A stretch of 64,000 nucleotides of DNA, taken from positions 40,664,141-40,728,140 of the forward strand of contig CM055095.1 in NCBI GenBank assembly GCA_029204225.1. Reading direction: 5' to 3'. The position numbers were made by a program, and so were the translations under genes. This document shows positions 19,637 to 64,000 of this stretch, piece after piece (the first letter of the stretch is position 1; every line of letters begins with the position of its first letter). The notes below the pieces were generated by a model. The model searched no databases and had not been told where the DNA came from. It worked only from the letters and a program-made list of their open reading frames with translations. The stretch comes from Diphasiastrum complanatum. Its lineage: Eukaryota > Streptophyta > Lycopodiopsida > Lycopodiales > Lycopodiaceae.

Positions 19637-20185
19637 TGGTATCAAAGCTATTTTCTATAACCTGATAAGCTTCCACAGTAACAAGACTCTACTAGCCGAT
19701 AGAGTAATTGTCTTCTTGTTCTGTAATCCAATATTAGATTTTCATACTTAGGTCACTAATAGTTTTCCTATCACCTAGATTAATCTTTCACATGGATTCC
19801 CAAGGGAAAGCCAGTCCTATCATGAACAAGCTTGATGGAGCCAATTACCATCTGTGGAAATTTAAGATAAAAATTGTACTAATGGCTAAATAATTGTATG
19901 ACGTTGTTACAGATGCAGAAGGGGAACCTGAAGCTGACGACGCAACAATCAATGGATGGAAGCTGAAAGATGAAAAGGCTTTTGCGTTGATCATCCTCGA
20001 CATTTTGGATACCCAGATCGTCCATGTATCCGAGGCCCAAACATCGAAAGAAGTCTGGGACATCTTGAGCACACTATACGAAGTGCGAGATATAGCTTCC
20101 AAACTACATCTCAGGAAGAAATTTTACTCCCTCAAGATGGCGAATGGTGATTCCCTGCAGAATCACATCAACCAACTCAACTTTG
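19637..20185 (+). pseudogene. Copia B primer site, leader and gag start
   Basis: The primer-binding site TGGTATCAAAGC is at 19637-19648. The gag start codon is at 19792 (MDSQGKASPI), followed by GANYHLWKFKIK, an ochre stop at about 19890, then DVWDILSTLYEVRDIASKLHL. The frame is lost at 20185, where unrelated minus-strand copia A sequence begins. It pairs with the gag at 466-1343. Confidence 0.8.
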
Positions 20186-20189
20186 AGGC

Positions 20190-21880
<1,691 letters not shown>

Positions 21881-23000
21881 AATTATTGCAGTCTCTCATC
21901 CTATTTAAGCACCGTAAAGATGAAGTTTTTTTTTTTAAATAATTGTTCATTCAGAACATATTCATAGGGCGAAGCATTTTGAAAAAGCCGATATCGATTT
22001 TACACGAGAGAACAAGTGCTTTAGAGGAAAAGATCAAATAGGCACGCGTTGATTAAATACTCTAGTACGACGAATCGGATATCGGATCAGCGCGTCCATC
22101 CAAAAAAAAAAATTCAACTTGGACTATGCACGTTGATTCGCTTCAACGTTGGAATGTTGCGTTCCAATATATTTTTAGTGCGTCTCAGATATCGGATCAG
22201 CGTCTCTGGGAGAAGAAAGTGATTTTTCCCTTGGACTGCATGCGTCCAATCGTTATTGCAATTTTTTTTTTTTTGAAAATTGTCAAAATTATTTAACGAC
22301 ATTATGCATGATCAAAGCTTGATTTAGTAGAGTCTTCATACTGTCCAAAGCTAGGAAGAACATATCGAGTCAAGCTCTGATCATTCATATACCTTCCAAT
22401 ATCAGTTCAGCGTGCGAGAATAGCTCCTCTGGTTTAAACGTGCAGTATATGCGTGTCGATTCCCTATTGGATGAAATAATGGCGTTTGAAATTTTTCGAA
22501 TTATAATGATTGGATGTCAAAAAAGGTTGGACATTTATAGCATAATCTTGTCATTTTATGAAATTAATTGTAGATGTGACCATACTTTTGTAGAAATTAA
22601 GCCATATCAACTAATCATTGTCATGACTGATGTATCTTTAATTGGATTTGATTGACAAGCCTCTGAATATCTCAAAGTAATCATCAATGTAATCGAAGCC
22701 TCAGAATTTCAAAAGACCACTTATGCAATGATTTCAATGCACTATATATACAAATGGACGATGCTCAAATTTTTTGCTTGAAGTTCTTATCGTTCTCTAC
22801 TTCCATGCGATATCGATTCAACGCGCCCGAAGCAGCCTACCTACATTCCGCTTTTACTCGCGCGCACCGTATCAATTTGGTCTGAGTTTAGATATCGGTT
22901 CGACGCGCTCGACCTGACTTCTGATCTTGAGTTCTCCTTCATCGCGTTGATATGATATTGGATAATAATGACACAGACTAAGCAAACAACATGAATCCAC
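21881..23000. repeat. Field of a 20-bp motif in alternating orientation
   Basis: The motif GATATCGGWTCARCGCGYCC occurs forward near 21989 (partial), 22078, 22188, 22399, 22809 and 22891, and reversed near 22041, 22158, 22451, 22862 and 22942. Spacing is irregular. No gene is seen apart from these; the H3-like gene begins right after. Confidence 0.6.
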
Positions 23001-23074
23001 CTTGGTGGAATCCCAATCACAGGAGGGCGTCAGGGTAATCCACAACCACTGCCTCGTCCACCACCACCTCCTCC

Positions 23075-25043
23075 TAGGCCAAGGGGCAGATGAAGGACCC
23101 TCCCTAACTGAAGGATATTCGGAAGCTACAGAAGACCAATAATCTTCTGATTCCGAAAGCTCACATACAGAGATCCATCAGACAGGTTACAAGAAGTCTA
23201 TCTGCAGATGTGAGATGGACTGTAACGGCAATTGAGACGCTGCACACTGCATATGAGGATTTCCAAGTGAAATTTTTTTCAGATACTATTGTTGCAGCTG
23301 TCCATGCCAAGAGGGTGACCATCATGCCCAAGGATTTCAACATTGTGTTCAGGCTATTGGACACATATGATAAATTTGCAGAGTACTTTAGACCAGCTCT
23401 TTCGTCTCCTCCAAAACAAGATGCGGAAAAAAGAAAACGAAAGCAATCTCAACCATCCCGGCTTGTTTTTCGAGTACAGAGCGGGAGTGTTTCAAAGAAG
23501 AGGAGGTCTCGTGACCCTCTTGATAAAGCGAGGGATTTTTCAAAGCCATCTCCTCTACATGTGATTCTAACTGCTGCACAGTCTCCTTCTTCTCCTCCTA
23601 GAACTCCATCTCCGTCTTCTCCTACTAAATCTTCCTCTCCTAATAAATCTCCTCCTCCTTCAAAATCTCAGTCTCCTCCTACCCTCACAAATATTAGTTC
23701 CCCACCTCCTATTCTAGAAAATGATTTAGATGATTTTGTAAATGTAAAGGTAGAATCAATTTTAAATGACAATTCTTTTACTGGTTTATCTATATTACTT
23801 CCTCCACCCCCTACACTTGCCTTTGTAAATACTCCTCAATATGCACAATATGACCGATATCTTAAATCTTTAGGTCCTCTATACAGTTTTAACATGCCGA
23901 AAACTAATGCTGATCTTCCTCTTTCTAAATTAGATACAGGTGAATTAGAAAGTAGGATAAAATGCTAGGGAACAATGTAGGAGGGGGTCAATTCAGTACT
24001 GGATGGAGTTTTTCCAAACCCCACTGTCTATAGATGTAGCATTGTTTCTATTTCAATTCATGGCTGTATTTGATTTCCCTTATTTCAAAAGTCTGCATGA
24101 TGATATGCTCCAATACGTTAGACTGGGGACTCCAATTCTCATGCTCCCATACATAACAAAGTAAGTAAATTTCTATCAGATTTCATTAAGTTGAATTTTT
24201 TATATGAATTTTGATCACATTCATTTTCATAAATTTATTGTTTTTTGCAGTGATCATTGGAGCTTATATGTGTTGTGCTTATATGTCAATGATGAGGGAG
24301 TGTGTAATCCAGTTTGTTTAAAAATGAACTCTATTACACACACACACACACAAAATTGCAAGGAGCCATATCCAGAAAATACTGGAACTCTTTCCAGTAC
24401 CACATGCAAAAGCATATACGAAACTGAAATTTGTTGATGCAAAGGTAAAAAAATTTCAATATCAGTCCGACGTGCCCTTGTAGTTATTGCTTGGTTTTTT
24501 TATATATTGTGCACGCGCTGATCTGATATTCAAACAATATTTTTTGGATATCGGTTAAACACGCACTTGTTTCCGTTGTAGATTTTATTATAACCTCTTG
24601 CGCGTTGATCCAATATTACATAGTGTTAAAATTTGGTTACTAACTTTCGTTTATATTGGATACCGCAGTCCTCCCAGCAGGTTGATTCTGTCAGCTGTGG
24701 TTGGTATACGATATGCAATGCCAAACACTTTTTCAATTGGCTTGCACTACAAGATGGACTTCCCAATCTAGAAGTAGTAATCTTAGATTAATAACATTTA
24801 ATTATGTTTTTATTTTTTTTCATAATCACATTCCTATAACTAATCTTTGATTAATAACATTTAACTGTGTTTTTGTTTTTTTAGTTTAAATGCCCAAAAG
24901 TCTCCCCAATGGAGATAATGCACTTCAGGCAGGAGACCATAAGGCTTGTGATCGAAAATTCAAATCCACTTGCAATGGCAGCGTATTCTCCACCCACGCT
25001 ATTTCCAACTGGAGAAATGGATGTAGAGATCATAGAAAGTTGA
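23075..25043 (+). pseudogene. Decayed gene: histone H3-like fold joined to a Ulp1/C48 cysteine protease
   Basis: Exon 1 (to 24160) first encodes an H3-like histone fold from 23108: DIRKLQKTNNLLIPK aligns with H3 EIRKYQKSTELLIRK, then QRSIRQV, the alpha-2 helix AIETLHTAYEDFQV, and HAKRVTIMPKD at 23303-23335, identical to H3. Next come a basic KRKRKQ/KKRRSR segment and a Ser/Pro-rich linker (23570-23720). After a one-base frameshift near 23960 a C48 protease follows; exon 2 (24251-24444) has the catalytic His in NDHWSLYVL, exon 3 (24669-24773) has QQVDSVSCGWY with the catalytic Gln and Cys, and exon 4 (24885-25043) ends it. All three introns are GT-AG. Stops at 23075 and 23105 and a (CA)n expansion in exon 2 break the frame. 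Upstream, PRPPPPPPRPRGR (about 23047-23090, another frame) may be the old N-terminal tail. Confidence 0.7.
24459..24617. repeat. Same 20-bp motif, four alternating copies inside the protease intron
   Basis: Forward at 24459, reverse at 24511, forward at 24547, reverse at 24600. Neighbouring copies could pair into stem-loops. They lie wholly within the intron between exons 2 and 3 of the H3-like/protease gene, linking this repeat to the gene on both its sides. Confidence 0.65.
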
Positions 25044-25491
25044 TATTGATAAAAAGTAGGTCTCCCTTGATGTGGATGAGACACACGTACAATTTTTTTT
25101 TTTTTATATTTACATTTTTTTGTGGTTGTTCTTACGTGTTTGTTTTCCTGTTATTAATTCAGGTTATTATTCATTCATCTTCAATTTTTATGATTTTCCT
25201 ACATGCTCGTTTTTCATAGCCTTGGTCTGCCTTGTCTTTACCATGGTTTTTTTTTGATAAGTTCAGAAAAAATGATCTGATCGAGCCTTTGCCACAGCCA
25301 ATCCAAACATGTGACATAAGTTCACTTAGATTTTTTGCGACAAAGCTTTGATCAGATCATCTTCTGAACATATCCAAATATGCCAAGACAAGGACAATAC
25401 AGACCAAGGCAAACCAAAAATACAACCGATATATCTGAGACTTCAACAAGGGCAACCATCGATTCAATATATGATTGTAGTGGTCACTGGA

Positions 25492-25618
25492 GTTCAAGTG
25501 ACCGAAGATCTCCCCAATGGAAATAATGCATTTCCTGCAAGAGACAATAAATCTTGTTATCAAAAACTCGTATTATCCAGTTGCAATTACATTGTGTTCT
25601 GCACCATGGAAATGGAGA
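25492..25618 (+). pseudogene. Second copy of the last exon of the H3-like/protease gene
   Basis: KISPMEIMHFLQETINLVIKNS aligns with exon 4 (KVSPMEIMHFRQETIRLVIENS), with TGC changed to TGA at the position of the Cys near the exon start. No catalytic exon is found upstream of it, so it is an orphan duplicate of the 3' end. Confidence 0.7.
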
Positions 25619-25869
25619 TCATAGAAATGAAAGAGCCTCATAGAAAAAATGATTCATATATTTTCAAAAATGATGTATACAAAAAATTGTATTAGATAAT
25701 ACAAAATTCCATTATTCATAATCTATGGATCTTCAATTTTGATGGATGTTCCAATGTCTTTGCATTTTATATGCTCTTCCTGCTTTACTCTTACATGCAC
25801 AAGAGAAATTGTTTTAGTTAATATATTTTTTGAAATTGATTCACTTAGAAATAGAAAAAAAAAAAAATT

Positions 25870-26160
25870 TCATATGGCATAACGTACCTTTACACCATTC
25901 AATCGAAATTGATAGTACTGAGATACATCAAATTGCAACATGTCTAGTTTTGATTGAATGTGATTGAGACACCAATCTTTCTCAACCACAACCATGGCAA
26001 GAATGTTGTCATTTCTTTTCACTGTTATCTGAAGTTGCTCTTGAGGGTTTATACCAAAATCTTGATCAAGTGGCTTCCAAATATTTTTGCATTTAATCCA
26101 TCTTCTATAATACAGCAGCAAAGTGACCATTTGTTTTTCGATGTGATATCTAAATTTCAT
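25870..26160 (-). CDS. Unrecognised 96-codon ORF facing the H3-like/protease gene
   Basis: The frame encodes LQITVKRNDNILAMVVVEKDW, then CLNHIQSKLDML and YYQFRLNGVKV. The order of two strands, a helix and a strand with a turn before the last strand is reminiscent of a ubiquitin-like beta-grasp, but no Gly-Gly end is seen and I do not recognise the family. It converges on the H3-like/protease gene. Further exons may lie upstream at 26200-26340. A chance open frame cannot be excluded. Confidence 0.3.
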   Translation of the reverse strand: MKFRYHIEKQMVTLLLYYRRWIKCKNIWKPLDQDFGINPQEQLQITVKRNDNILAMVVVEKDWCLNHIQSKLDMLQFDVSQYYQFRLNGVKVRYAI

Positions 26161-26812
26161 TGATGAGTAACATACTCTGCGGTCAACTTGCTGATTTTGT
26201 TTTGTATCTCATCCATCATCCAGCAACTCGACAATTATTTCAGCACTGAAGTCCTTACAAATAAACATTGTTTTCGTTCTCCGAACATTGCATTTGAAAA
26301 AAAAATCAACAAAAATAGTAAAAGGTAGATACCAACTTAATCTATCATTCTTTGATCCAGTGCTACATTTTAGCTAGGATCCTACAAGAAGATTTTGTAA
26401 ATGCCTTGAGTAGGTGTTTTACTCGAAGAATAAGAGGATTTCTTATCCATGGATTCATGCATGAATGAAAGACTAATTAGATGTCCCCTTCAATTATTGA
26501 TGCACTTTTGAAATTGAGATTTTTAGTCTTTTTCTCATGCATGAATGTTGATGAAGCATATGTTCGTCAAACATATGCTTGAGTTCTAGACTATGCACCA
26601 TTCCATTGATAGTATACTTACTAAATCAAAATAGAGTTTCAATGGCTTGGCTTTCAACAAACGCGGTTCATCAAAAAGTTTGCTATACGTCACGGGATAG
26701 GAGCTATTCATACAATTGTTGTATGATTGTCTAATATTTAATAAAAAATCTCTCATGTATCTCCAAACGATTGTTTAGATTGATGCATTGAAAAGTTATT
26801 CGAAGCTTTTGA

Positions 26813-26947
<135 letters not shown>

Positions 26948-27438
26948 AATCTTTCTCTCATTTATGAATCTTGACGAACAGTGTTCGTCAAAACTGGTGA
27001 TTAATTTATTGTTCTTTTACTAAACCATTTAAAGTATATTTGGTAAATCATAAAGGAGTTTCCTTATCTTGAATTTTGACAAACATCGTTTGTCACGAAC
27101 CATGCTTGAACTAAAAATCCCTTCAAACAGCCTCGTAAACACCTACGGCAGGTGTAACTAAAAAGGGTAGGATTTGTTAAGAATAGCCTCTCATATGTAC
27201 CCAGGCCAGTTGTGTTATTCAGATTGGAGTTTCGCTTGTCTTGATTTTGAACAAACACGATTCATCAAGAACCATGCTTAAACTCAAGACCTCATGATGC
27301 AGCCTTTTAAAGTCAATACTTATATCAAGTGTACCCACAATTGTTGTCAAATATGCTAAGAAAGTCTCTCATATATCTCCAAGCCAAATGATAAACTCAA
27401 AATCATAGTAAAAACATTCTTAGATTTTGACATTGTGA

Positions 27439-27633
<195 letters not shown>

Positions 27634-28806: not shown

Positions 28807-29965
<1,159 letters not shown>

Positions 29966-63500: not shown

Positions 63501-64000
63501 TTATGGTACATAAAGGACATTTTCTAGATCCATGCATTTTGAGGATTCTAGACACAAAGAGATGGTGCCAACACCATCTATCCTACACTCTTCATCATTT
63601 GCAGTAAAGACAAACTTTTTAGCAGCATTGAAAGAGTGTAAGGTTGAGAAAAAGTCCTTTTCACAAGACATGTGAGAGCTAGCCCCACTGTCGATCCACC
63701 AATTGTCTCTTGAATTGCTATTGCTTGTTGGTGAGGATGTAGATGCCATCAAGAATACATCTACTTCATCCTCCTCCTCCTTTGCAAGGTTTCCTTGTTT
63801 GTCCTCCTCCACTTGTGCTCTTAGCCTCTTGTAGCATTCAGATGCATAATGCCCCTTCCTTCCACAAAAGAAGCATTTTTGCTTTGACTTGTCCTTTGAG
63901 CTTGATGCATCATCCTCTTCTTTGGCCTCCTTTGGATGCTTCTTCTTTCCATTGGTCTTCTTTTTGCCCTTGAATGAGAAATTGGCTTTCTCATCACCAT
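63501..64000 (-). pseudogene. Copia F gag end and protease, runs off the window
   Basis: Lys-rich segment, CCHC knuckle CFFCGRKGHYASEC near 63875-63830, acidic linker EEEDEVDVF, then protease WWIDSGASSHMSCEKD near 63700-63650 and LENVLYVP. A TAA at 63501 separates it from the integrase-derived frame by 13 bp. All protease active-site residues are present. It is closest to the zinc-knuckle fragment at 20.2-20.6 kb. Confidence 0.85.

Follow-up and report, generated by a model that had tools for sequence, protein, structure and literature searches.

The 64,000 nt of Diphasiastrum complanatum DNA analyzed here, referred to as the window, contain at positions 23,075 to 25,043 a histone H3-like frame followed by exons of a Ulp1/C48-type cysteine protease. 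This raises the question of whether the two parts form one gene and to what kind of genetic unit such a gene belongs. An undescribed mobile element, an integrated virus, and two fused host genes that then decayed had been offered as origins in the initial annotation. The locus was compared with its relatives in the 1.74 Gb assembly holding the window, which fall into three branches (F1, F2, and F3, the last including the window). The following features were assigned:

21862..26373, + strand: recognisable F3 element copy (blastn to siblings from 21862; tblastn with F1 gene 4 to 26373)
22031..22958, no strand: upstream noncoding cluster of ATATCGGWTCARCGCG and variants in both orientations (motif matching)
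22968..23107, + strand: N-tail remnant and proline-rich stretch (MTQTKQT...), from frame reading; siblings mostly have MARTKQT(A/T)RG..GG
23108..23356, + strand: H3-like core, alpha-N to alpha-3 (PF00125; ungapped to H3 in the PDB)
23357..23968, + strand: basic Ser/Pro-rich linker to the protease; the frame changes near 23968, unbroken in sibling L048
23961..24160, + strand: first protease part, donor AAA/GTAAGT (best 150 of 1162 genome candidates scored)
24251..24444, + strand: protease exon with the catalytic His (NDHW) and the Asn of KMNS; a (CA)n repeat shifts the frame inside
24459..24616, no strand: motif cluster within the second intron, at the same place in siblings
24669..24773, + strand: protease exon with Gln and Cys (SSQQVDSVSCGWY), from exon borders, PDB match, and alignment
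24885..25043, + strand: last exon, stop at 25041-25043
25885..26373, - strand: gene 4, C-terminal and middle parts (tblastn with F1 gene 4: 42% and 52% identity, E 5e-25 and 2e-14)
29164..29361, + strand: N-terminal piece of gene 4, displaced and inverted (tblastn 47%, E 1.5e-21)

The frame 23108-23968 matches the histone profile PF00125 with an E-value of 1.8e-18 and passes the Pfam cut-off. Its 83 H3 residues align to solved H3 chains in the PDB without gaps (best E 3.1e-16), and both results bear out the H3 fold that had been proposed. An AlphaFold model of the H3 part from the single sequence was uninformative (pLDDT 44.7), and the fold assignment therefore rests on sequence. The stretch HAKRVTIMPKD is indeed the same as in H3 at the host loci compared. 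Loop 1, which is longer in CENH3, has the canonical H3 length in the F3 branch, judged from the window aligned to solved H3s, as had been described, so that the longer CENH3-type loop is not found in F3; in F1 it is one residue longer than in F3. The core begins at 23108, which is not the start of the gene, as an H3-like N-tail begins upstream at 22968. Between tail and core lie two in-frame TGA codons (22992, 23091) as well as a frame change, and a stop codon stands where a tryptophan is expected at H3 position 47 (see below). With the two TGA codons and the frame changes before the core, near 23968, and in a CA repeat of the protease part, the copy in the window is broken.

All four protease exons of the window (23961-24160, 24251-24444, 24669-24773, and 24885-25043) have GT-AG borders, and the downstream ones contain DHW, KMNS, QQVDS, and SCGW. 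Taken alone, the protease of the window is weak, with PF02902 at 0.12, under the Pfam cut-off, and SENP8 as best solved match (0.0013, PDB); that of sibling L048 is also under the cut-off (0.066), and the single frame of L048, which lacks the later exons, gave no C48 match in Pfam. The assignment to Ulp1/C48 nevertheless held through the F1 relatives, which were found above the PF02902 cut-off. A profile of four protease sequences matches solved SENP7 (1.5e-4), Ulp2, SENP2, and SENP8. The catalytic set of C48 enzymes is a His-Asp-Cys triad plus a Gln. The four F1 and F3 sequences aligned all have the His, Asn, Gln, and Cys, the Asn standing in place of the C48 Asp, and because of this exchange protease activity is uncertain. 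The likeness to SENP8, SENP7, and Ulp2, which are the best solved matches and share the His, Gln, and Cys, thus differs at the Asp position. A (CA)n microsatellite lies at 24336-24353 inside the F3 protease coding exon and leaves the halves of the window's second protease exon in different frames. Its length varies among F3 copies (the window, L048, L050, and L051), shifting the frame, and L049 is in frame across it.

Searching the assembly with PF00125 gave 6325 first-look candidates, and the best 150 scored yielded 153 matches. Thirteen of the 153 are at the level of host H3 (163.7-165 bits); the rest are H3-like and score mostly about 95-110 bits, and among them long open frames are frequent, as are internal stops. 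The 83 residues of the window gave 6271 candidates (best 150 scored: 86-100% identical) and the first protease part 1162 (best 150 scored: 73-100% identity); such first-look candidates are not confirmed copies, and copy counts from the best-scored subsets are lower bounds. The loci read comprise 20 H3-like places, 16 siblings of the window (L036-L051), the flanks L031-L034 and L052, and twelve 60-nt end pieces. They are partly non-independent, since L036/L037, L038/L039, L041/L045, L015/L027, and L017/L018 look nearly identical.

Branch F1 consists of five loci (L016, L021, L023, L029, and L030), F2 of 15 loci, L011 among them, and F3 of the window with L036-L051. F1 and F3 proteins show 30-33% identity, aligned over the whole length. 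The F2 protein starts with MARTKQTAR, followed by a long low-complexity insert, the H3 core, and the H3-like end RRLRRERN. F2 loci (L011, L012, L022, and others) are abundant, begin their H3 with MARTKQTARDPR..., and have proline and glutamine runs between tail and core. C48 queries matched none of the 17 F2 loci searched, of which the F1 H3 query matched 15. A tryptophan at H3 position 47 is found in 35 of 36 loci and a proline at position 63 in 33 of 36, in all three branches (numbering by eye), and with these two residues in common the H3 parts of F1, F2, and F3 are likely to have one origin.

In F1 and F3 the H3 gene is continuous with the Ulp1/C48 protease. All five F1 copies have a single frame of 327-337 codons running from MD(R/K)RKQTRRD through the H3 core into the first protease part, and the F3 locus L048 has an uninterrupted frame of 417 codons with H3 tail, core, linker, and first protease part. 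A search for intact copies in the same genome, suggested at the outset, therefore returned relatives with an unbroken H3-to-protease frame, namely L048 and the five F1 loci. The spliced translations, for which a profile check had also been proposed, passed the curated cut-offs for both domains in two F1 proteins, L023 (PF00125 1e-27, PF02902 1.1e-10) and L029 (PF00125 8.7e-27, PF02902 5.8e-10). When the best 150 H3 places are set against the best 150 protease places, 27 pairs lie on the same strand 827-961 bp apart, compared with 0.06 expected, several of these pairs looking like duplicate contigs; pairs on opposite strands number zero. That the element and the H3-protease fusion are real is near certain.

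The unit to which the gene belongs is best seen in F1. Two bounded F1 elements were delimited, C7:71809545-71818225 (8681 bp) and C2:20439105-20448409 (9305 bp, L031/L029). The ends of the C2 copy are inverted repeats with 83.7% identity over 43 nt, and a 30-nt F1 end pattern with up to 3 mismatches has 2563 matches in the genome, against none for the reversed control. A related end (CATTAGGGCCC...) is found in eight F2 copies, together with one 3′ end. The F2 boundary was taken from the end common to these eight copies; a boundary derived from L011 was rejected, as that copy is truncated. The true ends of the F3 copy in the window were not found, nor were inverted repeats seen for F3, and the 5′ limit at 21862 is partly dictated by short sibling loci.

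The C2 copy is inserted in what we read, from gag and zinc-knuckle frames on either side, as a Copia-like element. Its flanks, when joined, give 300 nt, which match at 40 other places, 36 of them over exactly 300 bp (95-98%), the empty-site match being judged by the span of the joined flanks. Since the joined flanks occur intact elsewhere, the insertion seems to have been precise and without target duplication. Inverted repeats in the absence of a target-site duplication, as in this copy, are unusual for a cut-and-paste transposon; zero-duplication relatives of Harbinger are mentioned in the excerpts of PMC12730594. Among eight end pairs, one has a 3-bp match and the others show no target-site duplication, six of the eight being facing ends within 12 kb that possibly do not all belong to one insertion. 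For the L023 site no empty relative was found in the genome.

The F1 element encodes, in this order, a transposase-like gene (+), gene 2 (-), the H3-protease gene (+), and gene 4 (-). F2 has homologues of the transposase-like gene and gene 4, plus one covering part of gene 2, and their order is related to that in F1. None of the three further F1 genes has a Pfam match above the cut-off in the frames scanned. The transposase-like protein, with 9844 candidates in the genome (best 150 scored), has neither a Pfam match above the cut-off nor a meaningful PDB match, and its role is therefore deduced from conservation and abundance; by our reading it may carry D, D, and E-like residues and a CxxC motif. 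We infer that one of the three further genes is a transposase, which is unclassified. In the window, tblastn with the F1 proteins gave no match to this gene. Gene 4 encodes a conserved protein, with copies at L029:7600-7992 (-), L026 6894-7247 (-), and window 29164-29361. Its N-terminal part, which we took to look BAH-like, has instead a TnsA-like family as best Pfam match in F1 (0.003, under the cut-off), and the PDB search gave no useful match. Among the proposed origins, the undescribed mobile element is singled out by numerous copies scattered over the genome, inverted repeats, the precise C2 insertion, and neighboring genes common to branches. The family is a large set of inverted-repeat DNA transposons, and the window contains a decayed F3 copy of it.

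The tail of the H3 part differs from that of the host in a consistent way. Host H3 begins with MARTKQTARKSTGG (MARTKQTARKS) at 10 of 10 host loci. In the element, all 37 tails read have K4 (F3: 17 with the window; F2: 15; F1: 5), a count partly built in, since the pattern of the first tail table demanded KQT, whereas K9 is found in none of the 37, residue 9 being D, G, V, or I. Four loci overlooked by the KQT pattern (L015, L019, L027, and L040) were read separately and likewise keep K4 and lack K9. Judged by eye, the K27 region is not recognisable in F1 and F3 tails and the other tail lysines are mostly gone there. In F2 an earlier in-frame start gives MSEEMARTKQT, so that the tail may not be exposed, its free end being hidden. 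Compared with canonical H3, the element protein thus shares the core, alpha-N, and the tail start ARTKQT, but has W47 and P63, no K9, and, in F1 and F3, a loss of most other tail lysines and a fused protease.

Selection on the gene was estimated among F1 and F3 copies, which were chosen by protein or profile similarity, so that dN is biased downward. When L016 is compared with each of the other F1 copies, dN/dS is 0.11-0.17 for the H3 domain and 0.26-0.33 for the frame. Within the remaining four copies, the six pairs give 0.5-1.4 for the frame and 0.3-1.7 for the H3 domain, so that selection is visible only in the deeper comparisons. The pooled pN/pS of F3 is 0.25 (120 pairs). Our reading is that active lineages keep the H3-protease gene under constraint, whereas it drifts in copies that are dead.

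Furthermore, the gene is accompanied by short noncoding motifs, whose patterns were picked after viewing the sequence. The window has 9-11 occurrences of ATATCGGWTCARCGCG and its variants, all between 22031 and 24616, compared with 0.36-0.44 expected in 64 kb. Each of the 16 F3 siblings has the motif, both ahead of the H3 frame and within the second intron, and exon 1 lacks it. It often forms an inverted pair 53 bp apart, and deletions in L043 and L046 move the intron copies nearer. In the whole genome there are 1511 exact occurrences and none of the control. F1 has its own version, ATATCG(C/G)ACYTRTGCG, which occurs six to nine times in each of the five copies, upstream of the H3 frame, in inverted pairs 55 bp apart that recur at about 91 bp; with 20 shuffles of each copy the maximum was 2 matches. 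Neither the F1 nor the F3 pattern was found in 17 F2 loci. Loose cross matches (0-3 of the F1 pattern per F3 locus, 0-1 of the F3 pattern per F1 locus) show that the two motifs are akin and not fully separate. They are likely to be an address for the element's own proteins. In F2, tandem near-perfect palindromes (CCAGGGCGCGACCAGGGCCCGTTTGACC...) lie just downstream of the H3 frame on the reverse strand of L022 (5040-5176), and L011 and L014 have self-repeats similar to this array.

As for the function of the gene, the best explanation, which we regard as evenly balanced between right and wrong, is that the window carries a decayed F3 copy of a family of transposons with terminal inverted repeats in which the H3-protease gene serves against silencing. 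The H3 part would pair with H4 and enter or compete with nucleosomes at the element. As its tail keeps K4 and lacks K9, the main plant silencing mark could not be written on it, and the K9-less tails suggest a way for the elements to escape silencing. The C48 part, held in place, would strip SUMO or a related modifier from local silencing proteins or histones, and the branch-specific paired motifs outside exon 1 would guide the element's own proteins. This mechanism of a K9-less H3 with a SUMO-protease-like domain may hold with a chance slightly short of even. A bolder form, which is tentative and rather doubtful, would be transposons with their own histone, in which K9-less H3 at family-specific motifs together with a deSUMOylase-like enzyme makes silencing-proof nucleosomes and the address changes as branches diverge. 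Several points weigh against anti-silencing: F2 is abundant without a protease, its MSEEMARTKQT start would hide the free end of the tail, the loss of K9 could be drift in a tail retained for another reason, and the motifs could be sites of the transposase or of transcription factors.

Other roles were weighed against the same evidence. It is unlikely that the H3-protease works as a structural or targeting component of transposition, in which the H3 fold would steer integration or pack the complex and the protease would process element proteins. The position of the gene inside the element, the motifs close by, and the conserved core would fit such a part, and C48-like enzymes mature viral proteins; yet the K4 tail is retained, though DNA binding would need the core alone, the abundant F2 shows no protease in the 17 loci searched, and the closest solved proteases are of SENP/Ulp types. 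Still less probable is a passenger without function, an ancestral element having transduplicated a host H3 (and a C48 domain) so that copies hitch-hike. Many copies are broken and close F1 pairs are near-neutral, as such a passenger would have it, and the excerpts consulted report that plant transposons commonly capture genes, Ulp1 included (PMC13317346), and that Culex Helentrons hold broken histone gene fragments (PMC4067079). Against this stand the long open frames, the constraint in deeper comparisons, the active-site residues invariant in four aligned sequences, and an H3 core that has W47 and P63 in nearly all copies of three diverged branches.

An integrated virus, or an element of viral descent, as the source of the histone and an adenain-like protease is disfavoured and would be very surprising. 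Histone genes are known from some large DNA viruses and genes for C48-like proteases from some mobile elements, and the viral names among the Pfam matches under the cut-off, Adeno_E3 (0.12) and Tenui_N (0.045), are at chance level. Two IMG/VR scans with the putative transposase and the H3-protease as queries, in which short peptide patterns were sought first, returned no relatives. The bounded F1 copies are just 8.7 and 9.3 kb long with four genes, no other frame scanned is above the Pfam cut-off, viral families included, and neither capsid, polymerase, nor packaging genes were found above it in the F1 and F2 frames scanned, which speaks against the viral origin considered initially. Giant viruses encode histones, as histone doublets, and resemble the present case in that a histone is encoded by a mobile agent; here, in contrast, no viral relative was found and a single H3 is fused to a protease. 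The proposal of two fused host genes that decayed was right about the decay of the window copy and wrong as the main reading, since the fusion is unbroken in L048 and F1.

The anti-silencing reading has its closest precedent in Arabidopsis VANDAL elements. According to the excerpts of PMC5735166 and PMC13317346, their VANC protein removes methylation from related elements via short, often tandem noncoding motifs, and some VANDALs carry a Ulp1-bearing KIU form, the function of the Ulp1 being described as unknown (PMC13317346). The layout of the H3-protease is inferred to resemble this VANC/KIU precedent, which would argue for anti-silencing by analogy. Common to the VANDAL MULEs with VANC and the KIU/Kaonashi form, known from Arabidopsis and other plants, and to the present family are a plant DNA transposon with a Ulp1/C48 accessory gene and short noncoding motifs or tandem repeats that vary between related elements, as far as the excerpts show (PMC13317346, PMC5735166). 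In contrast to VANDAL and KIU, H3 precedes the protease here and inverted repeats are present. Pfam scans set the family apart further, with no MURA, VANC, or MuDR match in the frames scanned, and there is no duplication at the single empty site tested. A captured chromatin or DNA-modification gene, read as counter-silencing, is also described for fungal transposons such as Kyakuja and Plavaka in the excerpts of PMC12730594; their cargo is different (TET/JBP), and they make 2-8 bp duplications, whereas none was found at the site tested. Transposons with histone sequence have a precedent in the Culex Helentron, a rolling-circle element described in the excerpts of PMC4067079 with broken H4 and H1/H5-type fragments in eight copies. 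The present H3 gene differs in its long open frames, its three branches, and its fusion to a protease in two of them. Searches of the open-licence literature turned up neither a DNA transposon whose gene set includes an open histone gene nor a fusion of H3 with a SUMO-type protease.

If the anti-silencing reading is true, the family offers a natural experiment on which H3 lysines matter for transposon silencing, since in three diverged branches every copy read retains K4 and is devoid of K9. A candidate role would also follow for the recurrent Ulp1 domain of plant transposons, which according to the excerpts of PMC13317346 has no known function. Should the reading with an own histone be true, a transposon would rewrite its own chromatin by supplying a histone.

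Finally, the surroundings of the F3 copy contain further repeats. The displaced gene 4 piece is flanked by a 494-bp inverted duplication (95%), rich in AG repeats, at 27138-27631 and 29471-29964. A frame of the reverse transcriptase RNase H type lies at 21032-21652 and a Copia-type gag at 19894-20199, and Rfam and tRNA scans of the 64 kb window were empty. At its end, positions 63870-64000 hold a fragment of a Copia-like element of the same kind as the F1 insertion target.
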